A stretch of DNA of 44,954 nucleotides from positions 1 through 44,954 of the IMG/VR virus record IMGVR_UViG_3300033051_000021; one strand, given 5' to 3'. Positions 3,378-44,286 of this stretch are shown piece by piece. The stretch is from a virus. A program made the translations under genes and the position numbers. Each line of letters begins with the position of its first letter. Position 1 is the stretch's first letter. The notes under the pieces were generated by a model. It was not told the DNA's origin. It was given only the letters and a program-made list of their open reading frames with translations, and ran no database searches.

Positions 3378-3526
3378 TTTTCAATTCTCCATATAAAACC
3401 TGTTGCATCATTTCGCAGCAGTTTAGTTAGAAAGCTTTGAAGATATCTCATGTCTCTAGATACTTCTTCATAAGCTTTACCTTTGTATGTTCCTCTTAGT
3501 GAGTAGAGATGTTTAGTCTCTTGCAT
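3374..3526 (-). CDS. Small hypothetical protein (50 aa)
   Basis: Begins at ATG 3526, which shares one base with the stop of the upstream gene (TAATG), and ends in an ATGA overlap with the next gene. Such tight coupling at both ends argues strongly that it is translated. The product is basic and mostly helical (MQETKHLYSLRGTYKGKAYE...). No family is recognised. Confidence 0.6.
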   Translation of the reverse strand: MQETKHLYSLRGTYKGKAYEEVSRDMRYLQSFLTKLLRNDATGFIWRIEK

Positions 3527-3738
3527 TAAATCTCTCCAAACTTTATATCAGCTTCTGGAACTACTGCTAAATGTGTAAGTTGTTCTCTGTTTAAAATAGA
3601 GTCTATGGCTTTTATTAGAAACTCTTTAGTCTCTATTTTCTTGTAGTCCATTGATGTAGATGTTATATTTCTTTGCTTTATCAGCTGTTCATCACTCATC
3701 AAGCGAAACATCTCTAAAGCTTTTCTCTTGGTCATCAT
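3526..3738 (-). CDS. Small hypothetical protein (70 aa)
   Basis: Helical, charged protein (TKRKALEMFRLMSDEQLIKQRN...) of unknown function. An ATG exists at 3753. The start at 3738 is preferred because GGGGAGAGA sits 3-8 bases upstream of it as a ribosome site, and codons 1-5 of the longer form consist of that site. It lies 50-65 bases downstream of parB. The intervening AT-rich stretch contains TATTAT/TATAAT-like sequences that could be a weak internal promoter. It is coupled to the next gene by TAATG. Confidence 0.6.
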   Translation of the reverse strand: MMTKRKALEMFRLMSDEQLIKQRNITSTSMDYKKIETKEFLIKAIDSILNREQLTHLAVVPEADIKFGEI

Positions 3739-3803
3739 CAGTTCTCTCCCCATTTTCTTTTTTTAAAAATAGATATAATAAATTTACATATTTTTTTTAA
3801 CAT

Positions 3804-11682: not shown

Positions 11683-11870
11683 TGAGCAATATTGACTGGC
11701 TAAACACCGACACTTTAGCTATTGAGTTTGGAATAGCTAAAAGCACTCAAGCAAAATATCGTAGTGAAAAAACTATACCATACTCTAAGGTGGGCGGCTT
11801 TATATACTACTCAAGAAAGAAAATAAACGCATGGATAGAGAGCCATAGCTTTGAAGCAGAGGGAGCTTAA
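11682..11870 (+). CDS. Small HTH protein (excisionase/AlpA-like)
   Basis: This 62-residue protein has 'LNTDTLAIEFGIAKSTQAKYRSEKTIPYSKVGGFIYYSRKKINAWIES', which has the classic HTH_17/excisionase layout: DNA-reading helix, 'IPYSKVGGFIYY' wing, and helix to the end. It is coupled to both neighbours. It may be the directionality factor for the tyrosine recombinase or a regulator of the operon. Confidence 0.7.
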   Translation: MSNIDWLNTDTLAIEFGIAKSTQAKYRSEKTIPYSKVGGFIYYSRKKINAWIESHSFEAEGA

Positions 11871-11872
11871 AA

Positions 11873-13222
11873 ATGGTAAACACGGAAAATATAGAAAATA
11901 TACGAATACTCATACTTGCATCTATACTTAGTGCTAATGAGTTTGGAGAGCTAGATTTAAACATTGTTATGACTAGCGGTATAAATAAAGAGTGGTTTAA
12001 AGACGATGCTCAAAGAGCTATGTTTGAAGTTATGAATGTTTGTTATGATGGTGACATAGCATTTGACGACCACACTATTTTGAGTTATATGAAAAAAGCA
12101 GGCATTGAGCATCCTGAGCAGATAATGCTTAATGTTATGAGTCAGACACAGGTGCCACAAACCATAGTCATGGAACACATAGCAACACTTAAAGAGGTTC
12201 ATCATAGAGATATGCTTACTCTTTTGAGTCTTGAACTTCCTAAGCTGCTTAGTGATGAAAGTTTAAGTAGCGAAGCTATCACTCAAACTCTTCAAAACGC
12301 ACTTGATGACTTCTCTTTTTTAAACAAGGGAAAGTCCACAAGAAGACTTAGCGAAGTGCGAGCGATTAGAAAATCAAAACCTCCAGTTAAAAGGCTAAAA
12401 ACAAAAATTCCCTTTATAGATACAGTTCTTACAGATAAGCATGGGAAAAGTGGCATAAGAAATGAGGGGCTAATGTTCATAAGTGGTAAAAAGCAGACTG
12501 GAAAAACCTTCATACTTGCTCGTATCATAGAAAATGTATCGATAGAGGATCCTGTAATGTTTGGAAGTTTGGAGTTTGGGCAAGAGCTTTATGATGAAAA
12601 TGTCGAGCAGCAACAACAGGATGGAAACTTTGAAGGTGACATAGAGAACATCCACACATTTGATGACATTTATGATGTCGGTGGGATTATTGCAGAGATA
12701 AGACTACAGCATAAGTTATATGGAATCAAGCTTGTAGCACTAGACTCTATGATGAGAATTACAAATAATCACCCAGACCTTAAAACAGATGAGAGAAGAA
12801 TATCTGAGATGTTCTCACGACTTGGAAAACTGAGCAAAGAGTTAAAAGTTCCTATCATTATAGTTGTACAGAGTTCTAAAGAAGACTTAAAATCAAGCAT
12901 CATCAGTGTTAAGGGAAGTATGAATGCTGACCACGAAGCTTACGTTTGGTTTCATCTTGTAAAGACTAACCCAAAAGATCCTACTGATGAGATGAGAAAT
13001 GTTATTTGGACCAAAAACAAAGATACTCATAAGCACCCTATCCAAACACTTATGTATGTACCACAAACAGCTGACTTCTATAGAGTTGAAGTTGATGAGC
13101 ATGGCAATGCAGGCAAGGCACTTGATAAGTACAGAAAGCCACCTCAAAAAGCTGTAGTGACTGTTTATGAAGAGATGCCAGCAGATGTTGAAGCTCCGAC
13201 ATACGATATGCCGCAGTTTTAA
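11873..13222 (+). CDS. DnaB-like replicative helicase
   Basis: A 449-residue protein with the DnaB layout. A helical N-terminal domain (about 8-115, 'LASILSANEF...WFKDDAQRAMFEVM') is followed by a linker and a RecA-fold ATPase from about residue 175. The P-loop is G205-K-K-Q-T-G-K-T212, the Walker B-like strand is 'IKLVALDSMM' (about 284-293), and 'KVPIIIVVQSSKE' fits the H3 region where DnaB usually has Gln. It would unwind DNA at the phage fork with the primase encoded at 994-2598. It is more divergent than host DnaB, as usual for phage helicases of this class. Confidence 0.85.
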   Translation: MVNTENIENIRILILASILSANEFGELDLNIVMTSGINKEWFKDDAQRAMFEVMNVCYDGDIAFDDHTILSYMKKAGIEHPEQIMLNVMSQTQVPQTIVMEHIATLKEVHHRDMLTLLSLELPKLLSDESLSSEAITQTLQNALDDFSFLNKGKSTRRLSEVRAIRKSKPPVKRLKTKIPFIDTVLTDKHGKSGIRNEGLMFISGKKQTGKTFILARIIENVSIEDPVMFGSLEFGQELYDENVEQQQQDGNFEGDIENIHTFDDIYDVGGIIAEIRLQHKLYGIKLVALDSMMRITNNHPDLKTDERRISEMFSRLGKLSKELKVPIIIVVQSSKEDLKSSIISVKGSMNADHEAYVWFHLVKTNPKDPTDEMRNVIWTKNKDTHKHPIQTLMYVPQTADFYRVEVDEHGNAGKALDKYRKPPQKAVVTVYEEMPADVEAPTYDMPQF

Positions 13223-16473: not shown

Positions 16474-17472
16474 ATGAGTTTTATAAAAAATGTTAATGCA
16501 GTAGCAGCAGACTTGGCAGGCGGAGCAGCATCAAAAATAGCAATTATAAACAAAAACATAATTTCATTTAGTGCAAAAGTTATTTCTAGCCTTAAAGAGC
16601 TAGACACTCACACAACAGCAAAAGAGAATCAACTAGACACTTTCAACACTGCCAAAAAAGCAGAACTAGACACTCACACAACAACAAAAGAGAATCAACT
16701 AGACACTTTCAACACTGCGAAAAAAGCAGAACTAGACACCCACACTGCAACAAAAGAGACTCAACTAGATACTTTTAACACTGCGAAAAAAGCAGAGCTA
16801 GACACTCACACTGCTGGAATAGTAGATGATGTTCATGCTACTAAAACAAAAACTCATAGATACTTACTAGAAGTAGAAGAAAATGCTTATGATGTAGATA
16901 AAAAATTTACATATATAAAAGATATAGAAGTTCGTAAAGTAAAAGCATTAGATGAAACAACAGAGATACGAAAATCTGATTTAGATAAACATACAAATAT
17001 AAAAAAAGTTGTATTAGATAACTATGTTGATGATACTAAAAAAGCAGAACTAGATACTCACACTGTAGCAAAAGAGAATCAATTAGATGATTTCAACACT
17101 GTTAAAAAAGCAGAACTAGACACTCACACCACAACAAAAGAGACTCAATTAGATGATTTTAACACTGTTAAAAAAGTAGAGCTAGACACTCACACTACAA
17201 CAAAAGAGACTCAACTAGACACTTTCAACACTGCCAAAAAAGTAGAACTAGACACTCACACAACAACAAAAGAGAATCAGCTAGATAACTACGAAGCCAC
17301 AAAAGAACTAGAATTAAATGATTATAAAGTTATAAAAATAGATGAAATTGAAGTGTATAAAAACAAAAAAGTTGATGAGATTAATAATCAAGTAAACACT
17401 ATTTACTCTGACACATTTAAAGTTGCACGAAGATTTAAAATGCAGACTTTCGGCATAGGCTTAAATTTATAG
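16474..17472 (+). CDS. Coiled-coil tail-fibre-like protein with 22-residue repeats
   Basis: A 332-residue protein built mostly from repeats of the type 'ELDTHTTTKENQLDTFNTAKKA'. Two blocks, about residues 44-110 and 190-275, each carry three to four units, separated by a non-repeat segment (about 115-185) that looks like a short folded domain. Each 22-residue unit is two 11-residue halves with matching 'LD', the mark of a right-handed hendecad coiled coil. It lies directly before the variable adhesin and could form the fibre shaft that carries it. Confidence 0.6.
   Translation: MSFIKNVNAVAADLAGGAASKIAIINKNIISFSAKVISSLKELDTHTTAKENQLDTFNTAKKAELDTHTTTKENQLDTFNTAKKAELDTHTATKETQLDTFNTAKKAELDTHTAGIVDDVHATKTKTHRYLLEVEENAYDVDKKFTYIKDIEVRKVKALDETTEIRKSDLDKHTNIKKVVLDNYVDDTKKAELDTHTVAKENQLDDFNTVKKAELDTHTTTKETQLDDFNTVKKVELDTHTTTKETQLDTFNTAKKVELDTHTTTKENQLDNYEATKELELNDYKVIKIDEIEVYKNKKVDEINNQVNTIYSDTFKVARRFKMQTFGIGLNL
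16599..17290 (+). repeat. 66-bp tandem repeats in fibre gene
   Basis: Two arrays of 66-base units (about 16599-16815 and 17047-17290) with high identity at DNA level, around a unique segment. Slippage or recombination between units would change fibre length in 22-residue steps. Confidence 0.7.
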
Positions 17473-17526: not shown

Positions 17527-19047
17527 ATGGGTTTAAAAAGCACAAGAGATACACTTGTCAGTAGGATTGAAGAAGTTGCTGGCACAAGTACAGACCTTGA
17601 ACAGTTAAGCTTTGCAGGGGCAAGCTTACAAAAATTAGTCGATATCAACTTTGATATTTTACCAGAAGATACAGCATACAATATAGGTGTTCCAGGAACA
17701 ATGGGATATGGTGTATCTGCAATGCACGATGAGTTAGTTCCAGCTGGGTATATGAAACTATCTAGTCATGATGATGTTGCTCATCCAAATTATGGTTGTG
17801 TGATAGATTTGAATGGAAGTGTATTTGAGTATATTGCTCCTTTTTTCTTCAAAATGATTGGAAATAGTATTACTACTAGCCCTATATATGTAAGTGGATA
17901 TGTAAAACCTCGTGCTTTTTACGACTCGCCAAATGGATTTTTACACTTTAAATACATGGCTGGTAATGTTGGTGGAAAACTTGTTTCTAAACAAAATATC
18001 GACCCAGTATCAACATCAACTTCACATAACCCTATTGGGAATCTATTATCTGCTCCATCAAATAATTATGGTGGATTTGTTGATGCTTGTAAATCAGCAG
18101 GCTACAAAGCAACTACTATATTTGAATGGACTGCACTACAACTTTTAGCACTTGCTCAGTCGCAAAGTGGTGCATCTTCTGCACTATGTGCATTTAATGA
18201 TGTTGCACCATTTTTTCCAAAAGGAAATCTTGGAAATGCTTTACACGATGTAAATGATACAAGTGTAACTTTTACCGGTAGCGGCTATTCAAACTGTGCT
18301 TTGACAGGTAGTGGTTCAAACTTTGCAAAGACAACACACAATGGTCAGAACTCCGGTATAGCAGATATGAACGGAAATATGTGGAAGATTGTAACAGGAC
18401 TTACATACTTAGCAAAAAATAATGCGACTTGTGCAATAAATACAAAAGATGTATCTATGCCTAGCCACGGTTTAGCAATTAATGATGTAATTTACTTCGG
18501 TGGTACACCATCTAGTGGCTCTACTTATAACACTGCTGCTTATACAGTAACCGCAGTAACTGATGGCAATAACTTTACAGTAGGAACTGTACTTCAAAGA
18601 GCTATCGTGTCTACTGACGGAGTTTATAGTTCAAGATATTTCAGAATTTTAAAAACTTCTGTGAATCCACATGATCTTACAAGTGTAAATCTACTTGATG
18701 ATTCTAAATATGATTTGCTAAATCTTACTGGAATGATTGATTCAAATACTGGAAGTACTTATTTTGGGAATGGAGCAGAGACTGTTCTTAACTTTTCTAC
18801 AGATACAAATTCAATAGCATACAAAGCTGGAAGTGTTGGAATTCCAACTCCAACAGGAACAAGTGCATCTGGAGCTACTATATTTGGGAATGACTATATT
18901 TACAAATATATGAGACATGGTCTCGTGCCGCTTGTCGGTGGGGGTTGGAATAACACTTCCACTGCTGGGGTTTTCGCTCTTAATTTGCACAATTATTCGG
19001 CTACTTCGAACTACAATGTTGGTGGTTTCGCCTCTGTTTCCTTGTAG
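17527..19047 (+). CDS. DGR target: variable receptor-binding protein, FGE/C-type-lectin-like fold
   Basis: A 506-residue virion protein whose last about 40 codons are the variable region of a diversity-generating retroelement. The fold markers of formylglycine-generating-enzyme/C-type-lectin-like DGR targets are visible: 'GIADMNGNMWKIVTGL' (about 276-291) and the C-terminal 'VGGGWNNTSTAGVFALNL...VGGF'. Between them lies an inserted beta-rich domain with 'PSHGLAINDVIYFGG ... VTDGNNFTV' (about 315-360). The N-terminus (1-60) is helical and probably anchors the protein to the fibre. Seven codons in the variable region correspond to adenine-containing template codons (six differ from Asn or Ile, one from Asp). 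It likely decides host receptor choice. Ribosome site AAGGAG is 7-8 bases before the ATG. Confidence 0.9.
   Translation: MGLKSTRDTLVSRIEEVAGTSTDLEQLSFAGASLQKLVDINFDILPEDTAYNIGVPGTMGYGVSAMHDELVPAGYMKLSSHDDVAHPNYGCVIDLNGSVFEYIAPFFFKMIGNSITTSPIYVSGYVKPRAFYDSPNGFLHFKYMAGNVGGKLVSKQNIDPVSTSTSHNPIGNLLSAPSNNYGGFVDACKSAGYKATTIFEWTALQLLALAQSQSGASSALCAFNDVAPFFPKGNLGNALHDVNDTSVTFTGSGYSNCALTGSGSNFAKTTHNGQNSGIADMNGNMWKIVTGLTYLAKNNATCAINTKDVSMPSHGLAINDVIYFGGTPSSGSTYNTAAYTVTAVTDGNNFTVGTVLQRAIVSTDGVYSSRYFRILKTSVNPHDLTSVNLLDDSKYDLLNLTGMIDSNTGSTYFGNGAETVLNFSTDTNSIAYKAGSVGIPTPTGTSASGATIFGNDYIYKYMRHGLVPLVGGGWNNTSTAGVFALNLHNYSATSNYNVGGFASVSL
18920..19033 (+). repeat. DGR variable repeat (VR)
   Basis: 114 bases aligned without gaps to the template repeat 19498-19611. 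There are eight differences, all at template adenines: five A to C, two A to G, one A to T. None of the 88 non-adenine positions differs. The VR lies at the 3' end of the variable protein gene and the identity stops 12 bases before the stop codon. Confidence 0.95.
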
Positions 19048-19497: not shown

Positions 19498-19611
19498 GTC
19501 TCGTGCCGATTGTCGGTGGGAATTGGAATAACACTTCCAATGCTGGGGTTTTCGCTCTTAATTTGAACAATTATTCGGCTAATTCGAACAACAATGTTGG
19601 TGGTTTCGACT
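19498..19611 (+). repeat. DGR template repeat (TR)
   Basis: Partner of VR 18920-19033. Twenty-six adenines are present; eight (19509, 19521, 19522, 19540, 19566, 19582, 19590, 19609) differ in VR. Read in the VR frame, the template has Asn codons (AAT/AAC) at most variable positions, the usual DGR design that permits many residues but avoids stops. The flanks (19465-19497 and 19612-19706) are non-coding and should be part of the template RNA transcribed with avd and rt. Confidence 0.95.
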
Positions 19612-19706
19612 TCGTTCTAACCTGAAATATCTTAAAGATAAAATTGGAACAAAGGGATGTAGAGTCCAGCTATAAGCGAAATTTTAAAGAGGAGATTTGT
19701 TAGAGT

Positions 19707-20753
19707 ATGAGAAATATTAAGTATGGACTAGAAATTCCAAATACCTCGAAAAGATACGGTGGACTGTACCAGCTTGCTTTTACAAAAGAGAACCTTTACA
19801 AAGCTTATTTAGAAGCTAGAAAGGGTAAGAGAAATAAGGTTGGTACATATTTATTTGAAAAAAACATAGGTGAAAACATTGATAACTTATTTGAAGAGTT
19901 ACAGTGTTTTTCATATAAGCCTAGAGAGTATAGAACTTTTACAGTTTATGAACCAAAAGAGAGAGTTATTAAGGCACCTCATTTTAGAGATTTAGTAGTG
20001 CAGCACTCTATTTATAGAGTGATTTATAATATTTTCAATAAGTCATTTATAGATACTAGCTTTGCTTGTAGGAAAAATGGTGGAACTCATAAGTGTAGTG
20101 TTTATACCCAGACTCAGATGAAGAAATATAATGGAAATCTTTACTTTATCAAGCTTGATATTAGAAAGTTTTTTTACTCTATAGATAGAGGAATACTTAG
20201 AAAGTTATTTGAGAAGAAAATAAAAGATAAACAAATGATAGACATTATGACTCTGTTTACAGAAGATGATAGTTCTAGTGTTGGCATACCAATTGGTAAT
20301 CTTTTAAGTCAGCTATATTCTCTCATATATCTTAACGAGTTGGATCACTTTGTAAAAAGAGAACTTAAAATAAAAAGCTATGTTCGTTACGTAGATGATT
20401 TTGTGCTCATCGGTCTCACTCTTGATGAAGCAAAAATAGCAAAAGAGAAGTGTGAGAAGTTTGTACAGGACAAATTAAATCTTGAATTATCTCATTGGCA
20501 TATACAGAAGATAAAAAGAGGTATTAACTTTGTCGGATATAGGACATGGAAAAATGTAAAGTTTGTTAGAAAGCACTCTTTATACAAGTTCAAAAGAGCA
20601 ACAAAAAAACAAAAGGTCGATTCGATTATATCTTTAATCGGTCATGCAAAAGGTACAAAAAGTTTGAGTTATTTCAAAAATATACTTGAAAACTATATGC
20701 CTTATTATAAAAATTTAATACCGACTAGGAGTCGAAAATGTTTAGATATGTAA
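19707..20753 (+). CDS. DGR reverse transcriptase
   Basis: A 348-residue group-II-intron-like reverse transcriptase. The catalytic Y228-V-D-D231 is in 'YVRYVDDFVLIG'; motif 4 reads 'GIPIGNLLSQ' (about 193-202), the DGR-type variant; 'YFIKLDIRKFFYSIDR' is motif A. The RT-1/2 region 'KERVIKAPHFRDLVVQHSIY' is clear. There is no endonuclease or maturase domain. It copies TR RNA with adenine-specific errors and, with Avd, replaces VR. The gene overlaps the next by 16 bases. Confidence 0.95.
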   Translation: MRNIKYGLEIPNTSKRYGGLYQLAFTKENLYKAYLEARKGKRNKVGTYLFEKNIGENIDNLFEELQCFSYKPREYRTFTVYEPKERVIKAPHFRDLVVQHSIYRVIYNIFNKSFIDTSFACRKNGGTHKCSVYTQTQMKKYNGNLYFIKLDIRKFFYSIDRGILRKLFEKKIKDKQMIDIMTLFTEDDSSSVGIPIGNLLSQLYSLIYLNELDHFVKRELKIKSYVRYVDDFVLIGLTLDEAKIAKEKCEKFVQDKLNLELSHWHIQKIKRGINFVGYRTWKNVKFVRKHSLYKFKRATKKQKVDSIISLIGHAKGTKSLSYFKNILENYMPYYKNLIPTRSRKCLDM

Positions 20754-32085: not shown

Positions 32086-35000
32086 ATGCCATCTCCAACA
32101 AACAAGTTTTTAACACAGATGAGAGAAGAATATCCTGAGTATGATGATGTTGATGATACTACACTTGCTAAGGCTTACGGAAAAAAGCACTATGATTACT
32201 TAGAAGAAGATGTGTTTCTTGAGAAAGTAGGTCTTCACCAAAGTACTCTACTTGATGATGCTATAGACCTAGTAACTCCTACTGAAAAACCATTCACACA
32301 AGATAACAATACAACTGAACCATCTCTCCACGATGCTATAGCTCCAAATGTTGATGGTAGTATGCCAGCTACTACAAAAGAACAAGAGAAGCCTTTTAGC
32401 GTTTCATCTCCTGCATTTACTCAGAGTGAAGATCTCACAACAACAATGACATCATCTCAAATGAAAGACTCTATAGCTAACGAAACGAGCCTACTGCTTG
32501 GTGAGGGAAAAGACTTTGAAAATCCTGACAGAGAGGATTATGAACTTGGTAAAAGAGTAGTTAATGCTACAAACAAAAGTACCTCTAGTATGGCTAAGGG
32601 TCTTTTTCGCGTTCTGGGTTCTACTGCATACACTCTCATTAGACCTTTTTCACAAGAGACTGCTACAAACGTATATGAATCGTATATGGGTTCTGCAAAG
32701 AAAATATCTGAGTATGTATATGAAGATAACAAGTTTGATGTAAAAAGTACTCACACTCCGAACTCTATAAAAGAAGCTGTTAAGGCTGGTGGAATATTTG
32801 ATATAGACACAGTTCAAGAAGTGCTGCTTTATGGCTTAGACACTACTATAGAATCTGTTCCGGATATGGCAGAGATAGCTACAATGTTCCCTGCTTATGT
32901 TCTCGGAAAGGCTGAAAACAGTGCTTTAGAGAGAGCAAAAAACGATGGAAGAAAAGAAGCGACTAATGAGGACTTTTTAAGAGTTTTACCCACTGCGACT
33001 ACGAGTGCTCTACTTGATAAAATGGGGTTAGAAGCTACAACAAGTAAAATATTTAACGATCTTGTGAAAACTACAGCAGCAGGCGGTATAAAAGCAGCTT
33101 CAATAGAGATAACTAAAAAAGTGAGAAACGGTACACTTACTGAAGCTGTTACAGAAGCAGGACAAACTGTTATTGATAAGATGGGTGAAGAGATAGGAAC
33201 CAAGAGTGGGCTAAGTTCAGTTGATAAGTATGCAGAAGAAGCAGCTTGGGCTTCACTAGCTGGCGGTATCGGTGGTGGCGCTATGAGTGGAACTACTGCG
33301 ACAGGTACTATAATCTTTAACGAGTACTCAAAAGCTGATAAAGAAGCACAGAGAGAAGCTTACATACAAGACTCTTACAACAAGCAGATGCTAGGGAGTT
33401 CTTCTTTAACATCTAGCATAGATGACAATAGATACGTAGTCTTTAAAAACAATCTTGATACAAAAGTAAAAAATATACAGACAGAGTTTCAAAACTTAGT
33501 GATAAACAATCCAGACTTAGCAGTTCCAGTAGAAGCTGTTAATGATATAGCAGTTCAAGAAGCAGTAGTGCAAACTGCTAAAGAAGATGGACTCAATGTA
33601 AGTGATAATAATGGGCTCAATGCAATAGATGCTGGGTTTAAAGAGCTAGAAGCAGAGATAGGAACTCTTGATGAAGAGATGACTCCTAAGGGTAGTGAAG
33701 TTGTTAATGTTGAGCCTATACCAATAGTTAAAACTCCTATAGATACTGCAAGACTTACACAACTGCAAGAGACTCCAGCGGATGAACTCACGGTTGATGA
33801 GCAGTTTGAATTAGAAGATTTACAAATAGAAGAACAACAAATCCAAAAGTTAGGAAATGATGAAACTGCTCTTGTAGATGCAAACTCTAAACTTTTTCAA
33901 GCAAACAAGAGTGAAGAAGCTAAAATAAAAAGCCTTGGTAAAGATGAAATAGCAAGTGATGAACTTACTGCACTCATAAAAGATGGTTTTACTTTTGTAA
34001 AAAAAGGTGACTCATTTGAGAATACGACTACAAGTATAGGCGATAGATACATTAAATATGATGAGCAAGGTAATAAACTCACAAAGTACTCTACTGGAGA
34101 TATGGAAGTCGAATACAGTGATGGAGAGTCTGTTATGTTACACCCTGATGGAACACATACATCATCTTTAGGCTTTGGAGATGGCATTACAACTGCACAA
34201 GATGGAACTCTTCTAAGTGATGAGGAAGCTATTTTAGATGAAGTAAAAAGTCGATTTATCACAAACAACAATTCAATAAAAACTATTCAAGTAAAAGTAC
34301 CGACTATAGACGAAGCACGAGACAAACAAAGAGAGTCTAAAAAATCTGCACCGACTCACATAAGTGAGCAGTTAGCACTTAATGAAAAACTTTATGCAAA
34401 TGATGAGACAGCACTTGCAGATGCAAATGCTAAACTTTTTCAAGCAAACAAGAGTGAAGAAGCTAAAATAAAAAGCCTTGGCAAAGATGAAATAAAAAGA
34501 CTTGATGATGAGTACTTTACTGAGAAATATAGTGATGTGGAAGTACAAAGAGCTTATGACTTTTTACCTACCGCTACAAAACAGAGTTCAGCAGTTCAAG
34601 CTTCACTAGACTTTGCTGGAACTCAAAACCCTCTCTTTAATACAAAGGGAAGTGAAGAGTATATAGTTCCAACATGGGCGAAAGACATAGTGAGCGATAC
34701 ACTTAGATATGATGATATAATTACAGCTGTTACGGATGCTAAGAATGGTAATCCTACAGATACTTCTTTTAGAGTTATGGATGCACTTCATAAGGCTGGT
34801 GACCCTCACTTAGAAAATGAGATTGAGAGATTTGATGAACTATCTCAAAGATGGGATTTAAATGAGTTAGAAGAAGCAGAACAATCAGAACTTGCAAAAG
34901 TTTTAGACAAACACTTAACAGGAGTAGAAGATGGCACAATCACAAGAGCAGAAGAATCGACAAGAGCTACACAAGATGAAACCGCAGATAATGAAGTTGT

Positions 35001-38000
35001 ACAAGCAGTTACAGAGCAAGGGTTACAGCAAACAAGAAGCACAAAAGAGAGTGATAGAAGTCTACCCGATAGCTTCGCAGCTCAAAAACCTTTAGTCTTT
35101 GATACTGCAAAAGTATATGACACAAGAGGAATAAATCACGAAAACCCTCACAATAAACTCTCTGAAATAATTAAAAAAGATGTAGCAAGATATGTAAGTC
35201 AGTTGGCTAAAAATCTTGGTTATGATTTTGAGATAGATAAGAAAGGTAAGAAAAAAACTTTTAATGGAGTAAATAATAATATTGCAGTAGTTGGTGGTAG
35301 TATAAGCTTCAAGCTTTTTAAACCAAATAGTGATGCTGGGATATATGTGAGCCTTAACTATGACTCCTCTATGACTGATGATGGAAGATATGATACTTAT
35401 TTTTTAAATGATAAAAGCTTAGGACATTTCTTTAGAACAATAAATGGAATAGATGATCATACAGGTGGAAAAAACAATTGGTTTAAAACCGAGGACCTAA
35501 CAAGTGATACTTTTGTAAATAAAATAATATCTTTAGTTGAAGCACAAGAAAAACGAGATAGTGATATAATAAATAAAGAGGTAAAAGAAGATGAAAAACT
35601 TGAACAACCAACAGAAAGAGATGATGGACGAGATATACTCGAAACCTTATCAACAGTGGATGATGGGAAAAGTTCGGGACAATCTCGAAGAGTTCAACCC
35701 GACTCTATACAAGGAACTGATAGCAAAAGCCAAAAACAAAGCATTGCACCACTACCAGATACAACAGGTAGACAAAGCAACTCAGATGATGGAAGAGTTA
35801 GTGATGAGCGATTATCAGCTTCACGAAGCGAAGTCGATGGCGGAGGGGGAACACATTCTACAGTTTCAAGATTAGAAGAGACAGCAGATAACTTTGAAAT
35901 AGAAGATGCCCTGGGAAAAGGTGGTCTTAAAACTAAGTTTAAAACAAATATTGAAGCTATAAAAATAGTTAAAAAAATCCAAACAAAAAACTATAAACCT
36001 ACCAAAGCAGAAAAAACAATCCTCTCTCAGTATGTTGGATGGGGTGGACTCGCTAATGCCTTTGTTCGACCCAATGGTTCAATAACTAAGGGATGGGAAA
36101 AAGAGTCTAAAGAACTTAAAGAGTTACTTAGCGATGATGAGTACAAAGAAGCTAAGGCTTCAACTCTTAATGCTCACTACACAAGCAAAGAGATAGTTGA
36201 TGCTATCTGGAGCGGTGTCAAACAGTTTGGCTTTAAGGGTGGAAAAGTTTTAGAACCATCTGTAGGCGTTGGTAATTTTTTCGGTATGATGCCAACTTCT
36301 CTTAAAAGTTCTACAAAGCTGTATGGCGTTGAACTTGATGGAATAACTTCTACTATAGCTCAAACACTCTATCCAAAAGCTACTATACAAAACAAGGGTT
36401 TTCAAGATGTAGAACTTAGCAATGACTTCTCTTTAGTCATAGGAAACCCTCCATTTGGTTCTGTAAAACTTTTTGATAAAAACAACAAACACTTAAAAGA
36501 TATGTCAATACATAACTACTTCTTTGCTAAAAGTATGGATGCTCTTGAAGAGGGAGGAATCCTTGCTATGGTTGTGAGCAATGGCTTAATGGATGCAAGT
36601 AGCAGTGCTACAAGAGAGTATCTTGGAAGTAAAGCAAATCTTCTTGGAGCTATCCGACTTCCAAACAACGCCTTTAGTAAAAATGCAAACACGGAAGTGA
36701 CAACAGACATCATCTTCTTACAAAAAAGATATAAAAGTCAAGAATCAAACATAGATACATGGAGAGATATAGGAGAGATAAACGACACTCCTTTAAATCA
36801 ATACTTTGTAAACAATGAAGCTATGATGCTTGGTAAGTGGGGGAAATATGGCTCTATGTATAGAGGGGATATGCCTGCTCTTGTTGCCTTTGAGGGTTCA
36901 ACTAATACAGCAGGAATGCTTTTACCTGATGCACTTAAATCACTACCTTCAAACATAGTCACTCACGAGACTATCATAAAAGAGAACACAAGCGAAGCTA
37001 CATTTAGCGGTGATGTTTCCAAGGTAAGAGTCGGTGCTATGTATGTAAGTGATGGATATATATACAAGAGAGAACTAGATGTAGATGGAGAGCCACAAGT
37101 AAGGGAAGTTACTACAAAGCTAAACTCTAAAAATAAGATAGTAGAATATAAGCCTGCCGAGCTTTTAAAGATAAAAGGTATGATAGAAGTTGTATCAGTT
37201 GCAGATGAACTTAGAGTACTTCAACTTAATAACAGAGCAACTGATAAAGATTTAGCAAGAGCAAGAAAAGCTTTAAATAAGAGCTATGAAGCCTTTACTA
37301 CAAAACACAAGTTTTTAAATAATGCTACAAACAAGAAGCTTTTTGAAGATGATGTGCGAAGTCCTTTTTTACTTGCACTTGAAAAACATTATGATAAAGG
37401 TGTGAGTGCAGCAGTTGCTAAAAAAAGTGGGGAACTTGTCAAAAAAGAGTCTGCTGTTAAAGCAGATATATTTACTAAAAGAACTCAGAACCCTTATGCC
37501 AGACCTACCAAAGCAGATAGTGAGCAGGATGCTCTTACTGTTAGTCTAAGTGAATATGGCTCTATTAACCTTGGATATATGCAAGAGCTTACCGCTAAAA
37601 GCGAAGCGGAGTTAATCTCTGCACTTGATGGATTTATGTATGATGATGTTGATGCTGGATGGGTAACTAAAGAGGAGTACTTAAGTGGAAATGTAAAAGA
37701 GAAGTTTGCACTCACGGATAATGTTAAGTACAAAAAAGCACTTCAAGAAGTGATACCAAAAGACATAGAAGCTATGGATATATCCATAACACTTGGTGCT
37801 GGATGGGTTCCTAAAGATATTATGGCTGATTTTGTTGAGTTTATAACCGGTGATGATGCAGCAAAAGTAACTCTTACACCTCATAATGCTAGATGGACAA
37901 TAAGTGCAAGAGTTACAAGTGCTAAAGCTTCGCAATGGGGTACTAAAAGAAGAACTGCTACGGAGATACTAGAGCAGACTATGAATCTTAAACAGATGAA

Positions 38001-41000
38001 AGTGCAAGACAATCACGGTACATCTTCTCAACCACAACTCGTTACAAACATAGATGAGACAACAGCGGTCCAAGAGAAACAAGAGGTTTTAAAAGAGGAG
38101 TTTAAAGAGTGGATTTTTAAAACAGCAGATAGAAGAACTGAGCTTGCAGAGATATATAATAGAGAGTTTAATACTAAGACTCTCCGTGAATACGATGGTT
38201 CACATATAAACTTCGTAGGTAAGTCTGAGATGATAAACTTACGACAGCACCAAAAAAATGGAGTATGGAGAATGTTGCAAGGCGGTACGGTTCTCTTTGA
38301 CCATACCGTAGGAACAGGGAAAACTTTTACAGCCATAGCTGGCGTAATGGAGCTAAGAAGAACAGGTAAAGCAAATAAGCCTTTAGTAGTTGTACCTAAC
38401 CACTTAACTTCGCAATGGGGTAAAGAGTGGATGGAGTTATATCCAAATGCAAATATACTTGTACCAACGAAGGCAGACTTTAGTGCTGCAAGAAGAAAAC
38501 TACTTATGAGTAAAATAGCTACTGGAGACTATGATGCGATAATTATAGCTCACTCTCAACTTACTTCTATCCAAAACGACCCTGAGTTTGAGACAAGCTT
38601 TATAGAAGATGAGATAACGAGAATCCAAACTTCTATAGATATGCTCAAAGAAGAAGATGGGAAAAGCAGAAGTGTTAAAAATGCAGAGGACTCTAAGGCA
38701 AAACTAGAAGAGAGAATAAAAAAACTAAACGATATGCAAAGAGATGATAATCTTAACTTTGCAGAACTCGGCATAGATGCTCTCATCCTTGATGAGGCAC
38801 ATGAGTTTAAAAATCTTACTTACACTACTGGACTTCAAGGAGTAGCTGGACTTGGAAACCCTAAGGGGAGCAAAAAAGCTTTTGACCTTTTCATAAAGAC
38901 TCAAAATATTTTAGAGAAGACTAATGGGAACAATGTAGTGTTTTTAACAGGGACACCCATCTCTAACACTATTGCTGAGATGTTTACAATACAGAGATAC
39001 TTAGACTATAGTGGACTTCAAGATAAAAATCTTGATGTGTTTGATGCTTGGGTAAAGCAGTATGCTGAGATAGTAAGTGACTGGGAGCTTAGTCCTAGTG
39101 GGAAGTATAAACTCAACACCCGCCTTAGAAAGTTTAATAATATGCCTGAACTTATAACAGAGTATAAACAGTTTGGCGATGTTGTTACAAGAGAAGATAT
39201 ACCGGCACTTCCAATCCCTCTGATAAAAGGCGGTCGTGCTGCAAACATAGTAGTTGAGAGAAGTGATGCACAAGCTGCATACATAGGAGTAGCAGATAAA
39301 AAGGGTAAATATCCTGAGGACTCTTTAGTTTACAGAAGTGAACATTTGCCAAAAGGTAAGCCAAAAAAAGGGGATGACAATATGCTCTCGATCATGGGGC
39401 TTGCTAGAAAAGTAGCACTCGACATGAGACTCATAGACCCTAGTTATGAAGATAACCCTGATAGCAAAGTGAATCTTACAGTTAAAAACACTTTTGAAAT
39501 TTATAAGATGTGGAACGCTAAAAAAGGTACACAGTTAATCTTTTGTGATTTAAGTACACCTAAGGGTGCAGTAGCAAAAGAGAAAGCGAAGATAGAAGCA
39601 CTTATAAAAAATGCAGAGAGTGCAGATGAAAACGTAGCAGAAAAAGCACAAGCTGAACTTGATAAACTTAACCCTGACGACATAGATGCTCTTAACTCAA
39701 AGTTTAGCGTTTATGATGACATCAAAGCAAAGCTAATAGCTAAGGGGATAAAAGAGAGTGAGGTCGTGTTTATTCACGATGCAAAAACTGACTTGCAAAA
39801 GCAAGAACTTTTTGCAAAAGTGAAGAGTGGAAAGATAAGAGTGCTGATAGGTTCAACTTCAAAGATGGGTTCAGGCATGAATGTTCAAGATAAACTTGTA
39901 GCACTGCATCATATAGATGTACCTTGGAGACCATCAGACCTAGAGCAGAGAGAGGGTAGAATAATCAGACAGGGGAATGAGTTTTTTAAATCTGACCCAG
40001 AAGGTTTTGAAGTAGAGATATTTCGTTATGCTACTAAAAACACACTTGACAGTATGATGTGGCAGACCATAGAAGCCAAGGCAAACTTCATAGCACAGTT
40101 AAGAGCTGGGAATCTACTTGATAGAGAAGTAGAAGATGTCAGCGGTGAAGCTATAAACGCGGCAGAGATGAAAGCTATGAGTAGCGGAAATCCTCTAGTA
40201 TTTGAAGATATGAAACTTAAAAAAGATATAAAAAAGATGGAAGCTCTCAAAAAGTCTCATGACAGAAATCAGTATGATTTAGAGGACAAGATAAAAAAAT
40301 CTACTACACTGCTAAGTGAGAGTAAATCTATTTTAGATGCTTATGCTCTTGATGCTAAGTTGTCAAAAAAACTTCCTAAAAAGTTTATTATGAACATAAA
40401 TAAAAAAGAGTATGAAAGCAGAGAAGACGCTGGTAAAGAGATACTACACATCATGCTTAAAACTCCAGAGAGAACTTCTAAGCTTATAGGTGAGATAGGT
40501 GGGTTTAAAGTTTATGTTGAGACTACAGGTAAAGGTTTGAGTCTTAGTGATACAGGGATAGTTACTCTTAGTGGGTCACAAGATTATGAGTTTAGCTTCA
40601 ACATGGAAGATCAGAGCTATAGCGGACTTACTCTCAAGCTGGAAAACACAATCAAAAACATAGCTACTAAGATGCAAGAAAAAGAGTTGGATACAGAGTA
40701 TGTTAAAGAGCAACTACCACAGCTTAAAGAACAGGTAGGAGAGTTTAAAAACTCTAATAAGCTTGATGAGTTAAGACTAAGACAAAAAGAAGTATTAGCA
40801 GAACTTAGAAAAAAAGATGATGAGCCAACAGATACAGTTGATGAGATGAGCACCGGTGAAGTTTTAGAAATGATAGAGACTTTAGAGGGTAGAGCAAATG
40901 AGAGTTTTATGAAAGTACCTACAAAAAAAGAGGTTAAAGATACAGCTGCAAATAATCACTACTCACGAGTGAATGGTTTTGATGAAGCCGGTGTAAACTA

Positions 41001-44000
41001 TGTACCTACTTACAAAACAAGCGGACTTCCTCATAGACCAGCAACAGGAACTATAAGCATAGGCAACAAAGAAGTGTCACTTCCTACTTATGAGAAAGCA
41101 ATGAATGCTGATACTATCAGAGTTTATCTTAGTGAAATTATTGGTAATCGTTTGTATCAAGCCAAGCTAAAAAATAAAAGTGCTTTAGGAAAGTACAAGA
41201 GAGATGACAGTGCAATTCGTGTAAAGAACTATAGCGATATTGAAGTAATGGCTCACGAGATGGCTCACTACTTAGACTTTTTTCATAACAACAAGAGTAA
41301 AGCTGCTCCTGATAGTTTCTTTAGAAGAGAGATACTAAAAAACAAAGAAGAGATAAAAGCTCTTAGCTACACTACAGACCCTAAAAATGTAATCAGCGAG
41401 GGATTTGCTGAGTTTACTCGTTTGTGGCTTACAAACTACAACAGCTTAACTCTTGTAGCCCCTAACATGATAAAAGATTTTGAAGCTAAACTCTCTAAAG
41501 ATAAAGAGCTAAATAAGAAAATGACACTACTTCAAGAGTCTATGCACCAATACTACTATCAAGGTGCTGGCGTTGCTAAGTATGTGGGTGGAGAGCTTAC
41601 TCCTACTGCAAAGAAGATACAGAGAAGTCAAGCAGAGATAGGTAAAAACTTTCGCCAAAAGTCTATAGATAGAATCCACTCTATCAAAAGAATAGAAGCT
41701 GAGATAAAAGGTGATGTCGCAGTAAATGCTAGAGATAGTGCTTATAAATCTTTACAGCTTGTAAATGGATATAGCTCTATTATGTATAGCGCTATGAACA
41801 TAGGGACACCGACTGTAAATGTAGATGGAGATATCTCTTACAGTGGAAAATCTTTAAATGATATATTTGCTCCTGCTACTACTGTAGATGAAAACAGAGT
41901 GAAGCTTATGGAGAACTACTTTGTAGCGAGACGTGCTAACGAACTCATGGAACAAGGTCGTGAGAACTTAATCACTCAAGAAGATATAGATGCAGACTTA
42001 GGACTTGCAGAGATATATCCAGAGTTTGAGACAATCTTTACAGAGTATCAAGAGTTTAACGATGCAATGCTAGACTTCTATGTAGATATGAATCTCATCA
42101 CAAGTTCACAAAGAGAGAACTTCCAAGAGATGAATAAAGACTATGTACCCTTTCATAGAATCAACGAAAGCGTTCAATACGATGGTGTGGCGACTTCAAA
42201 AATAGGGCAAAGGCTTACAGGTGGCACATCATCTTTAAACTCTATCATGGAGAACATTATCAATGGTGTTGAGAGTAACATCAAAGAGGCTTTAATTTCC
42301 CGAGGGAAATCTATGTTTTATGAAATGCTTGAAGAGAGTGGCATGGGTGGCGTTTATGCGACTAAAGTTTCGGCTGATAGTAAAGTAGTACAAGACAACT
42401 TAAAGGACCAAGCGAAAAAGGTAGCTACTGTTATGGCTATGATGGATATAGCTGTTTCTAAAGATGGAATGATACTTAGTGGAAAAAGTGATGCAACAGA
42501 GATTTATGATGTAAGCGAGATAGAAGAGAATCTTCTTACTAATCCTAAAACGATGGAAGTATGGACTCATGGACACCCTCCAACTTCTGCTGATGGCTAC
42601 ATAGATAGTGTAATCATAAATGATAGAGTTGTTTACTTTGAGACTAAAGATATAGGGCTTGTTGATGCTATGACTTCTTTTAGTGGTTCTCACTATGGAA
42701 CAGTCGTAAGTGGTTTAATGTGGATGAAAAATGTAATGACATGGAACATTACAAATAATCCTCTCTTTTATCTTACAAACTTTGTTCGTGATACGGTTAG
42801 TGCATCTGTCTTATCTAAAAATGGATTTATACCTGTGATAACTTCACTCAATGGAACATATCACTTTATCACTCGTTCTAAAACATATAAAGAGTTTATG
42901 GCTAGTGGTGCTGGTTATGGAACGAGAAGAACATCTTTAGGTGGAGACATAGAAGCTATGAAGATGCTCAATGTAAAAAGAAGTCTCTCTGTTCTTGATA
43001 GAGTTGTAGATGCTTTAGAGTACGGTGCTGATATGTTTGAGTATGGTACTCGTGTTGGAGAGTTTAAACTAGCACAAAACTCTGGAAAAAGTAACACTCA
43101 GTCTGCATTTGAAGCTAGAGAGATAAGTACTGACTTTGCTATCAAAGGTAGTGATAAAACTATAAGTGGGTTTATGTCAACTGTTCCTTTTATGAAAGCT
43201 GCAATACTTGGACTTGATAAAACTGCTCGTAGGATATTTTCTCTTAATGGAGAGATGAAAGTTAGTAATGCTTTAAAATTCAGAAATCAATTAGGAGAGC
43301 TGCAAACTCATAAGTTGAAAATATATGCTACTGGTGGGATGATGGCAGGGCTTACTCTCGCCCTTTGGTTTAACAATAAAGACGATGAGAGATACAAGAG
43401 ACTTACTCGTGATGCTAAGATGATGTACTGGCACTTCTTTATAGGAGAGAAACATATAAAAGTTCCTCGTCCTTACGATATAGGATTTGTGTTTTCAACT
43501 GTACCTGAGCTAATGGCTGATGGGATTTATACTAAAGAGGGAAAAGAAGCCGCTAAAGATTTTGCTTGGGGTGTTAAGAATATGTTTAGCATTGGAGATA
43601 TTAGTGGACTGTTCCAGCCTATACTTGATGATATGACTAACACAAATTGGACTGGCTCACCTATAGTTCCTGCTCGTATGCAAAACCTTGATGATTTGAG
43701 TGATCAGTATATGAACTCCACTCCACTTGTATATAAAATGTTTGGAAAACTTACTGGAGCTAGTCCAATAATGACTAAGCATTATGTAAATGGTTACTTA
43801 GGTTTAACTGCTCGCATGATGGAAGAGGTTACTGAAAATATACTTTGGAACTCTAAAGAGTGGGGAGCAAGACCTTTTAGTAAAAATGCTGCTGAGTTTA
43901 TGGTGTCGCGTTTTGTAGCAAAAGAGCAACCATCTCGTACTATTTATAGTGAGAAGTATTATGAGTTAGTGAAAAAAGCAAGTGCTGTTAAAAATAGCTA

Positions 44001-44286
44001 TGACCTTAAGAGTAAAAAAGCATTTATAGATGGTGGCAATGATGTAAAAGAGTATATGAGTTCTAAAGAGAAGCAGGCTCATGTTCAGATAAGTAGAATG
44101 CTTTCTTCTTATTCTAAAGAACTTGCAAAAGTAAAGAACAGTGTTGAGCATATTACTTATAATAAAAAGTTTTCTCAATCTCAAAAAGAAGAGAAAATAA
44201 ATGCAGCTTATGAAGCTAAGACATCTGCGTTTGAAAAGATAGTTACAAGTGTAAAGAAAAAACTTGATGAAGTAGAGGGGAAATAA
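32086..44286 (+). CDS. 4066-residue polyvalent protein: methyltransferase + SNF2 helicase + metallopeptidase-like
   Basis: This single frame takes up 27% of the window. The N-terminus (about 1-60, 'MREEYPEYDDVDDTTLAKAYGKK') resembles starts of podoviral internal proteins. The next about 1200 residues are mostly disordered or helical, with a Gly-rich hydrophobic patch near 390-410. An adenine-specific methyltransferase domain follows ('VLEPSVGVGNF' near 1388, catalytic N1454-P-P-F). The SNF2-type helicase has P-loop 'TVGTGKT' near 2074-2080, D2236-E-A-H, 'GTPISN' near 2289 and Q2621-REGRIIRQG. A zinc peptidase-like site has H3057-E-M-A-H3061 and E3109. The rest (about 3200-4066) is helical and probably membrane-active, with 'WNITNNPLFYLTNFVRD'. 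Such polyvalent proteins, including P1 DarB, enter with the DNA and counter restriction. Packaging here is inferred from placement after the portal and internal protein genes. Confidence 0.88.
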   Translation: MPSPTNKFLTQMREEYPEYDDVDDTTLAKAYGKKHYDYLEEDVFLEKVGLHQSTLLDDAIDLVTPTEKPFTQDNNTTEPSLHDAIAPNVDGSMPATTKEQEKPFSVSSPAFTQSEDLTTTMTSSQMKDSIANETSLLLGEGKDFENPDREDYELGKRVVNATNKSTSSMAKGLFRVLGSTAYTLIRPFSQETATNVYESYMGSAKKISEYVYEDNKFDVKSTHTPNSIKEAVKAGGIFDIDTVQEVLLYGLDTTIESVPDMAEIATMFPAYVLGKAENSALERAKNDGRKEATNEDFLRVLPTATTSALLDKMGLEATTSKIFNDLVKTTAAGGIKAASIEITKKVRNGTLTEAVTEAGQTVIDKMGEEIGTKSGLSSVDKYAEEAAWASLAGGIGGGAMSGTTATGTIIFNEYSKADKEAQREAYIQDSYNKQMLGSSSLTSSIDDNRYVVFKNNLDTKVKNIQTEFQNLVINNPDLAVPVEAVNDIAVQEAVVQTAKEDGLNVSDNNGLNAIDAGFKELEAEIGTLDEEMTPKGSEVVNVEPIPIVKTPIDTARLTQLQETPADELTVDEQFELEDLQIEEQQIQKLGNDETALVDANSKLFQANKSEEAKIKSLGKDEIASDELTALIKDGFTFVKKGDSFENTTTSIGDRYIKYDEQGNKLTKYSTGDMEVEYSDGESVMLHPDGTHTSSLGFGDGITTAQDGTLLSDEEAILDEVKSRFITNNNSIKTIQVKVPTIDEARDKQRESKKSAPTHISEQLALNEKLYANDETALADANAKLFQANKSEEAKIKSLGKDEIKRLDDEYFTEKYSDVEVQRAYDFLPTATKQSSAVQASLDFAGTQNPLFNTKGSEEYIVPTWAKDIVSDTLRYDDIITAVTDAKNGNPTDTSFRVMDALHKAGDPHLENEIERFDELSQRWDLNELEEAEQSELAKVLDKHLTGVEDGTITRAEESTRATQDETADNEVVQAVTEQGLQQTRSTKESDRSLPDSFAAQKPLVFDTAKVYDTRGINHENPHNKLSEIIKKDVARYVSQLAKNLGYDFEIDKKGKKKTFNGVNNNIAVVGGSISFKLFKPNSDAGIYVSLNYDSSMTDDGRYDTYFLNDKSLGHFFRTINGIDDHTGGKNNWFKTEDLTSDTFVNKIISLVEAQEKRDSDIINKEVKEDEKLEQPTERDDGRDILETLSTVDDGKSSGQSRRVQPDSIQGTDSKSQKQSIAPLPDTTGRQSNSDDGRVSDERLSASRSEVDGGGGTHSTVSRLEETADNFEIEDALGKGGLKTKFKTNIEAIKIVKKIQTKNYKPTKAEKTILSQYVGWGGLANAFVRPNGSITKGWEKESKELKELLSDDEYKEAKASTLNAHYTSKEIVDAIWSGVKQFGFKGGKVLEPSVGVGNFFGMMPTSLKSSTKLYGVELDGITSTIAQTLYPKATIQNKGFQDVELSNDFSLVIGNPPFGSVKLFDKNNKHLKDMSIHNYFFAKSMDALEEGGILAMVVSNGLMDASSSATREYLGSKANLLGAIRLPNNAFSKNANTEVTTDIIFLQKRYKSQESNIDTWRDIGEINDTPLNQYFVNNEAMMLGKWGKYGSMYRGDMPALVAFEGSTNTAGMLLPDALKSLPSNIVTHETIIKENTSEATFSGDVSKVRVGAMYVSDGYIYKRELDVDGEPQVREVTTKLNSKNKIVEYKPAELLKIKGMIEVVSVADELRVLQLNNRATDKDLARARKALNKSYEAFTTKHKFLNNATNKKLFEDDVRSPFLLALEKHYDKGVSAAVAKKSGELVKKESAVKADIFTKRTQNPYARPTKADSEQDALTVSLSEYGSINLGYMQELTAKSEAELISALDGFMYDDVDAGWVTKEEYLSGNVKEKFALTDNVKYKKALQEVIPKDIEAMDISITLGAGWVPKDIMADFVEFITGDDAAKVTLTPHNARWTISARVTSAKASQWGTKRRTATEILEQTMNLKQMKVQDNHGTSSQPQLVTNIDETTAVQEKQEVLKEEFKEWIFKTADRRTELAEIYNREFNTKTLREYDGSHINFVGKSEMINLRQHQKNGVWRMLQGGTVLFDHTVGTGKTFTAIAGVMELRRTGKANKPLVVVPNHLTSQWGKEWMELYPNANILVPTKADFSAARRKLLMSKIATGDYDAIIIAHSQLTSIQNDPEFETSFIEDEITRIQTSIDMLKEEDGKSRSVKNAEDSKAKLEERIKKLNDMQRDDNLNFAELGIDALILDEAHEFKNLTYTTGLQGVAGLGNPKGSKKAFDLFIKTQNILEKTNGNNVVFLTGTPISNTIAEMFTIQRYLDYSGLQDKNLDVFDAWVKQYAEIVSDWELSPSGKYKLNTRLRKFNNMPELITEYKQFGDVVTREDIPALPIPLIKGGRAANIVVERSDAQAAYIGVADKKGKYPEDSLVYRSEHLPKGKPKKGDDNMLSIMGLARKVALDMRLIDPSYEDNPDSKVNLTVKNTFEIYKMWNAKKGTQLIFCDLSTPKGAVAKEKAKIEALIKNAESADENVAEKAQAELDKLNPDDIDALNSKFSVYDDIKAKLIAKGIKESEVVFIHDAKTDLQKQELFAKVKSGKIRVLIGSTSKMGSGMNVQDKLVALHHIDVPWRPSDLEQREGRIIRQGNEFFKSDPEGFEVEIFRYATKNTLDSMMWQTIEAKANFIAQLRAGNLLDREVEDVSGEAINAAEMKAMSSGNPLVFEDMKLKKDIKKMEALKKSHDRNQYDLEDKIKKSTTLLSESKSILDAYALDAKLSKKLPKKFIMNINKKEYESREDAGKEILHIMLKTPERTSKLIGEIGGFKVYVETTGKGLSLSDTGIVTLSGSQDYEFSFNMEDQSYSGLTLKLENTIKNIATKMQEKELDTEYVKEQLPQLKEQVGEFKNSNKLDELRLRQKEVLAELRKKDDEPTDTVDEMSTGEVLEMIETLEGRANESFMKVPTKKEVKDTAANNHYSRVNGFDEAGVNYVPTYKTSGLPHRPATGTISIGNKEVSLPTYEKAMNADTIRVYLSEIIGNRLYQAKLKNKSALGKYKRDDSAIRVKNYSDIEVMAHEMAHYLDFFHNNKSKAAPDSFFRREILKNKEEIKALSYTTDPKNVISEGFAEFTRLWLTNYNSLTLVAPNMIKDFEAKLSKDKELNKKMTLLQESMHQYYYQGAGVAKYVGGELTPTAKKIQRSQAEIGKNFRQKSIDRIHSIKRIEAEIKGDVAVNARDSAYKSLQLVNGYSSIMYSAMNIGTPTVNVDGDISYSGKSLNDIFAPATTVDENRVKLMENYFVARRANELMEQGRENLITQEDIDADLGLAEIYPEFETIFTEYQEFNDAMLDFYVDMNLITSSQRENFQEMNKDYVPFHRINESVQYDGVATSKIGQRLTGGTSSLNSIMENIINGVESNIKEALISRGKSMFYEMLEESGMGGVYATKVSADSKVVQDNLKDQAKKVATVMAMMDIAVSKDGMILSGKSDATEIYDVSEIEENLLTNPKTMEVWTHGHPPTSADGYIDSVIINDRVVYFETKDIGLVDAMTSFSGSHYGTVVSGLMWMKNVMTWNITNNPLFYLTNFVRDTVSASVLSKNGFIPVITSLNGTYHFITRSKTYKEFMASGAGYGTRRTSLGGDIEAMKMLNVKRSLSVLDRVVDALEYGADMFEYGTRVGEFKLAQNSGKSNTQSAFEAREISTDFAIKGSDKTISGFMSTVPFMKAAILGLDKTARRIFSLNGEMKVSNALKFRNQLGELQTHKLKIYATGGMMAGLTLALWFNNKDDERYKRLTRDAKMMYWHFFIGEKHIKVPRPYDIGFVFSTVPELMADGIYTKEGKEAAKDFAWGVKNMFSIGDISGLFQPILDDMTNTNWTGSPIVPARMQNLDDLSDQYMNSTPLVYKMFGKLTGASPIMTKHYVNGYLGLTARMMEEVTENILWNSKEWGARPFSKNAAEFMVSRFVAKEQPSRTIYSEKYYELVKKASAVKNSYDLKSKKAFIDGGNDVKEYMSSKEKQAHVQISRMLSSYSKELAKVKNSVEHITYNKKFSQSQKEEKINAAYEAKTSAFEKIVTSVKKKLDEVEGK
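33887..33951 (+). repeat. 65-bp direct repeat, copy A, inside giant gene
   Basis: Same as 34430-34494 except for one silent T/C change. It encodes 'KLFQANKSEEAKIKSLGKDE' and lies in the low-complexity N-terminal part of the giant protein; similarity at protein level extends further upstream (DETALxDANxKLF). A recent internal duplication. Confidence 0.8.
34430..34494 (+). repeat. 65-bp direct repeat, copy B, inside giant gene
   Basis: Second copy of 33887-33951, 543 bases further on, in the same frame. Recombination between copies would remove 181 codons without a frameshift. Confidence 0.8.
35591..35875 (+). CDS. Embedded out-of-frame gene in giant gene (94 aa)
   Basis: In the +1 frame of the giant gene, an AAGAGG ribosome site (35576-35581) sits 9 bases before an ATG and a 94-codon frame ('NNQQKEMMDEIYSKPYQQW ... 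NPTLYKELIAKAKNKAL ... QMMEELVMSDYQLHEAKSMAE'). It reads like a compact helical protein, with aromatic residues, Met and amphipathic helices. It reminds me of TnpV-like small phage/plasmid proteins. The giant protein's own frame over the same bases (about residues 1169-1263) is Ser/Gln/Gly/Asp/Arg-rich and looks disordered. That contrast is what a gene overprinted on a linker looks like. Translation is not proven, and open frames of this length do arise by chance in AT-rich genes. Confidence 0.5.
   Translation: MKNLNNQQKEMMDEIYSKPYQQWMMGKVRDNLEEFNPTLYKELIAKAKNKALHHYQIQQVDKATQMMEELVMSDYQLHEAKSMAEGEHILQFQD
42296..42309. repeat. 14-bp palindrome TTTCCC-GA-GGGAAA, copy 5
   Basis: Exact copy inside the giant gene (read as S-R-G-K, as in the portal and recombinase genes). 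Confidence 0.7.

Follow-up and report, generated by a model that had tools for sequence, protein, structure and literature searches.

The stretch of DNA analysed here (the window) is a virus record of 44,954 bases, in which genes for a terminase, a head protein and a portal are present. Its plus strand carries a giant gene (32086..44286) for a protein of 4066 aa. As this product contains an N6-methyltransferase with an Eco57I-type methylase stretch (residues 1434-1520; 36385..36645, plus strand), an SNF2/ResIII helicase and LPD38, it was classified as a DarB-like polyvalent protein, i.e. one of the methyltransferase-helicase proteins described by Iyer et al. 2017 (PMC5512222). A 97-nt direct repeat (33855-33951 and 34398-34494, 93% identical) lies inside the same gene. 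In the related phage JC1, the DarB-like giant gene makes up 22% of the genome and its product, gp69, is packaged in virions (51 peptides; PMC9144972).

Just ahead of the methyltransferase part, and upstream of the methylase stretch, the +1 frame of the giant gene contains a nested ORF of 94 codons with an ATG start (35591..35875, stop codon included; plus strand). It is preceded by the Shine-Dalgarno-like sequence AAAGAGGT (35575..35582, plus strand), located 9 nt upstream of the ATG when measured from GAGG. Due to a TAA at 35582-35584, the inner frame of the window is open for only two codons ahead of the start. Over the nested ORF the outer frame (35592..35876, plus strand) encodes a polar linker, with a sequence that the inner frame largely imposes. 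The residues DERKSTGNQP account for 82% of this linker, versus 61% of the whole giant protein and 55% of the inner frame product.

A first-pass annotation, made from the letters of the window and a list of its ORFs, had proposed that this ORF is an overprinted gene with a ribosome site, an ATG and 94 codons, that the two frames have opposite characters, and that a small cytoplasmic protein is thereby produced from a gene whose main product is packaged. The coordinates and signals are exact and the difference in composition was confirmed. Packaging of the main product is supported by the virion protein of JC1, a related phage, while for the small protein both translation and a cytoplasmic location are only inferred. 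The length of the ORF is by itself weak and merely suggestive evidence. When the outer protein was fixed and synonymous codons were resampled, the 94 codons remained open in 1.3% of the trials, and an ATG ORF of at least 94 codons appeared somewhere in the giant gene in 3.8%. It is the comparative conservation that is decisive. A second metagenome contig (L002) shares 4166 identical bases (100%) with the window and terminates within the nested gene.

One relative, L003, is 76% identical to the window in the methyltransferase part and has an inner ORF at the same place and in the same frame. The inner products are about 49-51% identical (51% over 82 residues), whereas the outer linkers share only 30% identity. 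Over the nested ORF the outer codon positions 1, 2 and 3 diverge by 0.54, 0.41 and 0.24, respectively, versus about 0.2, 0.1 and 0.6 in the methyltransferase part; the wobble position over the ORF is therefore that of the inner frame. Nowhere else along the giant gene, of which 2062 codons were aligned, was such a flip of periodicity seen. In 5000 trials that resampled the codons of L003 while preserving its outer protein, the similarity of the inner frames reached a mean of 42.5 and a maximum of 111, compared with an observed value of 221 (z 11.9). A second relative, L136, gave the same periodicity and resampling results, its inner ORF being 49% identical to that of the window and conserved beyond what the outer protein forces. 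The more distant L137 showed a weaker pattern (0.68/0.49/0.56 over the ORF versus 0.33/0.23/0.61 downstream).

The same signal is found outside the window clade. Comparison of phage PEp14 with ten further main-family phages gave inner similarities with z of 11-22 over outer-preserving resampling, and the periodicity flip recurred in the majority of pairs from other phage clades, as well as in plasmids. The inner frame is thus under protein-level selection beyond what the outer frame forces. Two further flips of periodicity were observed in the giant gene of PEp14 (11702-11969 and 19958-20165 of L011).

A comparison of codon positions among relatives had been proposed with the first-pass annotation, and divergence indeed switches to the inner frame precisely over the ORF. 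The finding named there as refuting, i.e. an inner frame broken in relatives and no stand-alone homologues, was not made, as the frame is intact and an un-nested relative (L108, see below) exists. The proposal of an overprinted gene therefore held, on the grounds of inner-frame conservation, the periodicity flip and the ribosome sites, although its translation remains an inference.

Selection also acts on the outer frame. When the inner protein of the window was fixed, the outer frame stayed open in 0/5000 codon resamplings, and therefore both frames must be considered as being kept. For VvAW1, S. suis and Selenomonas the corresponding figure was also about 0, and it was 5-64% in several GC-rich plasmids, where nesting may therefore partly be a matter of annotation choice. 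Selection thus maintains an open outer frame in the AT-richer cases at the least. As regards its amino-acid sequence, the outer linker of the window clade shows no conservation above the level forced by the inner protein and openness (z 0.2-1.6), while in other clades this level is exceeded (z 2.5-4.8). Since in the window clade the inner frame (z 11.9) is conserved far beyond what the outer one forces, the earlier suggestion that the linker owes its form to the inner gene held there.

The protein encoded by the nested gene is predicted to be helical, as had been expected: its structure model contains five helices (mean pLDDT 95.7), and a comparable helical core is seen in the model of the PEp14 relative. 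In fold comparison, the window model was closest to 2apl (PG0816), which is a DUF1896 protein with a solved structure (Z 8.2 over 70 residues, 2.2 A; next best match 5.5). This match is weak and merely suggestive, given that helical bundles need a Z of about 13, and hhalign found no sequence relation to DUF1896 (PF08989; 0.5-2%). A structure search with the PEp14 model gave no confident fold.

The search of the 94-residue product against protein families, also proposed earlier, gave no significant match for the window protein itself. In Pfam no family was reported at E up to 10, the cut-off for TnpV (PF14198; 27 bits) not being passed, and tblastn against phages and plasmids yielded nothing significant. 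Sub-threshold matches to LcrH/SycD, Csx28 and DndC, obtained with Pfam, PHROGs, NCBIfam and PADLOC, were taken as chance. Nested relatives from Selenomonas (67 bits), S. suis (54 bits), Fibrobacter (35.5 bits) and Micromonospora (28 bits) do exceed the TnpV cut-off, and 29 of 60 nested phage-family proteins match this family at E<=0.01. Profile-profile comparison of the nested phage family with TnpV, shared sequences excluded, gave 96.8% (E 2e-10). The window clade is linked to the nested phage family by hhalign (77-97%; 93-97% for the profile of the window clade) and by hmmsearch, in which the nested ORF was at the top of 350 window ORFs (E 4e-6); a direct link of the window clade profile to TnpV was not detectable (2-4%). 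As the window protein is tied to TnpV only in two steps and has no match of its own, we refer to it as a distant TnpV-like protein and not as a member of that family. The resemblance to TnpV noted in the first-pass annotation thus holds at a distance only. It should be added that a hand-made consensus and another non-natural, TnpV-like sequence were used solely as baits to retrieve natural loci.

The nested gene is widespread. Seven relatives (L003-L009) had been retrieved by their methyltransferase and not by the inner ORF, and all seven have a +1-frame ORF within the linker. In a larger survey of 80 viral contigs, retrieved by the outer methyltransferase alone, the inner-family profile matched the +1 frame in 80/80 at E<1 and in 72 at E<1e-3, with no match in any other frame of either strand. 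This profile was trained partly on contigs of the same survey; when only distinct inner DNA was counted, 65/71 passed. In most of these loci no more than about 120 nt separate the end of the inner frame from the methyltransferase match. When the inner family itself served as query, 70 viral and 22 genome loci were recovered. Among 91 distinct relatives, the outer frame was open across the inner ORF in 86, while the other phase was open in none (0/91).

The 91 starts comprise 87 ATG and 4 GTG codons. A Shine-Dalgarno motif precedes 88 of them, compared with 568/5052 control ATGs in the same frame (11%), and its spacing in the family is mostly 6-8 nt; in BcepIL02, for instance, the inner start is preceded by GGAGG at good spacing. 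These sequence signals, which are the only evidence on this point, indicate that the nested gene has its own translation start.

One of the exceptions to outer-frame nesting is L108, a free-standing relative from Pseudidiomarina (3474-4262). Its product has a hydrophobic C-terminal part and its neighbours resemble McrBC; it is possible that this is a defence-island form of the family. A TnpV search of 60 genomes from the same phylum found none.

The nested gene was not annotated separately in any of ten phages inspected (PEp14, Pavtok, Stean, Itty13, VvAW1, SopranoGao, Atu_ph08, POI1126, Mwe-JY07 and LASTA). The text of Iyer et al. 2017 (PMC5512222) does not mention a nested gene, TnpV, an overlap or a frameshift, and the open-access literature searched contained no report of a gene nested within DarB or methyltransferase-helicase genes. 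As far as this literature and the annotated records show, the presence of a conserved TnpV-like gene within giant genes of the DarB type is new, while nested phage genes in general are already known.

The giant gene of the window may contain another such gene. A second nested ORF of 54 codons, with an ATG start (34931..35095, plus strand) in the same +1 frame, is preceded by AGGAG (34920..34924, plus strand), and L136 has aaggag at the same place. The ORF was also picked up by the profile, and its product is 51% identical to that of a +1-frame ORF of L136 (1545-1697), which has 55 codons, the same start and a ribosome site; the similarity exceeds what the outer protein forces (z 5.6-5.8). As only one relative is available, the conservation of this ORF as a second nested gene is less certain than that of the 94-codon gene.

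Elsewhere in the window, a diversity-generating retroelement was observed. A 119-nt repeat (18920-19038) lies at the 3' end of a gene for 506 aa (17527-19047), its template copy (19498-19616) is located ahead of a reverse transcriptase gene (19707-20753), and 8 of the 10 differences between the two fall at template adenines. A repeat family with 66-nt spacing (16530-17434) was found within an ORF of 332 aa (16474-17472).

Nested relatives matching Pfam TnpV occur in the mobile DNA of Bacillota, Actinomycetota and Fibrobacter. The order of a small gene followed by a methyltransferase-helicase gene recurs in plasmids of Actinomycetota and Bacillota, in which the TnpV-like gene is either annotated just ahead of the helicase gene or absorbed into it. 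With few exceptions, the helicase frame of these plasmids is open along the entire TnpV-like gene, in the same phase. Actinobacterial plasmids (L116-L122) share one arrangement, and their records list either a TnpV or small hypothetical gene with a shortened helicase, or a long helicase with the small gene dropped. In Bacteroidota, a DUF1896 gene stands un-nested directly before a methyltransferase-helicase gene of the same type in 3/3 loci (in one of them DUF1896 is sub-threshold), overlapping it by 20-40 nt. Cargo copies of TnpV located beside tet genes have no adjoining methyltransferase-helicase.

The origin of the locus can only be inferred. Most likely, the small gene and the methyltransferase-helicase gene following it were an old pair, in which the ORF of the latter became extended upstream across the former; the outer ORF would have been extended further when polyvalent domains were fused in front. 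In this scenario, which we consider likely, the inner gene is the older partner and the linker is new sequence. If so, it is strictly the outer linker that was printed over the inner gene, and the direction of overprinting assumed in the first-pass annotation has to be reversed.

We conclude that the stretch is very likely a conserved dual-coding locus with a real second gene. Selection has been demonstrated for the two frames, whereas translation of the inner one was deduced from the sequence. In the proposed mechanism, the inner ATG, served by a ribosome site of its own, would be an independent point of initiation on the giant gene's mRNA and give rise to a 94-residue helical TnpV-like protein, while other ribosomes would read the outer frame through as the polar linker of the packaged methyltransferase-helicase protein. 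The small protein may assist or regulate the methyltransferase-helicase as its partner, e.g. by keeping the enzyme inactive or aiding its assembly in the producing cell. That a product of the same mRNA serves the methyltransferase-helicase is inferred from linkage only, and we regard it as a possibility that is less likely than not; the cargo TnpV copies without such a neighbour and the lack of a nested relative in P1 DarB speak against it. A bolder reading is that giant antirestriction genes, which rank among the commonest of their kind in phages and conjugative elements, encode the TnpV-like protein as a partner in a fixed +1 frame. In this view the arrangement spans three or more bacterial phyla and has survived very deep divergence owing to the joint action of both products, and additional nested genes, the 54-codon one being an example, are present in some giant genes. 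This too is put forward tentatively, with the balance slightly against it.

The main rivals to a partner function are a role in excision and an effect in cis, both of which we consider unlikely. In the first case the product would be an excisionase or a factor that binds DNA, following the proposal made for TnpV of Tn4451, and a hitch-hiker without a functional tie to the methyltransferase-helicase. TnpV has been postulated to act in excision from its resemblance to lambda Xis (PMC3158075), and cargo TnpV is found apart from methyltransferase-helicase genes. However, a position inside the gene of a packaged product is unsuited to an excisionase, and the linkage to the methyltransferase-helicase extends across several phyla. 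In the second case nested translation would slow or couple ribosomes and so influence the folding or amount of the methyltransferase, the product itself mattering little. The fixed place ahead of the methyltransferase domain, with most inner frames ending within the mentioned 120 nt or so, is in line with this explanation, but conservation extends to the amino-acid sequence and to a well-defined helical fold, and free-standing copies exist.

A programmed frameshift, by which the inner frame would provide an alternative C-terminus for the N-terminal half of the giant protein, is very unlikely. In its favour, the upstream outer frame of the PBC5 record runs directly into the inner frame as orf33, and a PHROG profile apparently inherits this fusion. 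Yet the PBC5 fusion resembles a frameshift in one older record. Moreover, the ATG and the ribosome site are conserved, the relative L108 is un-nested, and the inner frame opens only two codons ahead of the ATG in the window and within five codons in 19/91 relatives; this late opening in the window favours independent initiation over frameshifting. A match to phrog_938, annotated as 'endolysin', was likewise traced to PBC5 orf33 (L016, 5752-12309), in which the N-terminal half is joined to the nested frame by an apparent frameshift of the record.

It is also very unlikely that a small mobile gene was inserted out of frame as a parasite. There is a precedent, the out-of-frame HNH endonuclease gene of ShiLan in a phage methylase (reported in 2025, PMC11855218), but the gene described here is near universal (72/80) and not sporadic, has no nuclease similarity, and no homologue with an empty site was seen. 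Finally, a frame open by accident in a low-complexity linker, and untranslated, finds support only in the chance openness mentioned above (1.3%, or 3.8% somewhere in the gene) and is all but excluded by the inner conservation (z about 12), the periodicity flip, the same frame in 80/80 contigs and ribosome sites at 88/91 starts.

Several known systems resemble the locus in part. TnpV (PF14198) of Tn4451-like transposons and conjugative elements is alike in size and pattern, although its classic copies beside tet genes are free-standing, unlike the nested window gene. The DUF1896 gene stands directly ahead of a methyltransferase-helicase gene, just as the window gene lies ahead of the methyltransferase part of its host gene, but it is not nested and no sequence relation was found. 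The giant gene of the window also differs from P1 darB, as the methyltransferase of P1 DarB is near the N-terminus and no nested relative was found in that gene. The HNH gene of ShiLan is likewise an out-of-frame gene inside a phage methylase whose own frame stays open; it is, however, a homing insertion with a nuclease, whereas the gene of the window type is near universal, non-nuclease and common to plasmids. Rz1 embedded in Rz, as in JC1 (PMC9144972), is another small phage gene that lies entirely within a larger one in a different frame, but these proteins are unrelated to the nested family and function in lysis.

DarB-like giant genes occupy a large share of many podovirus genomes and are read as single products, while nearly all of those surveyed conceal a second gene that is discarded by gene callers. 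Knockouts or truncations in these linkers should thus be interpreted with caution, as they affect two genes. The nested gene offers a handle on a possible control of the packaged methyltransferase-helicase, as well as a testable function for TnpV. The locus also constitutes an unusually well-documented case of a larger ORF apparently growing over an older gene.
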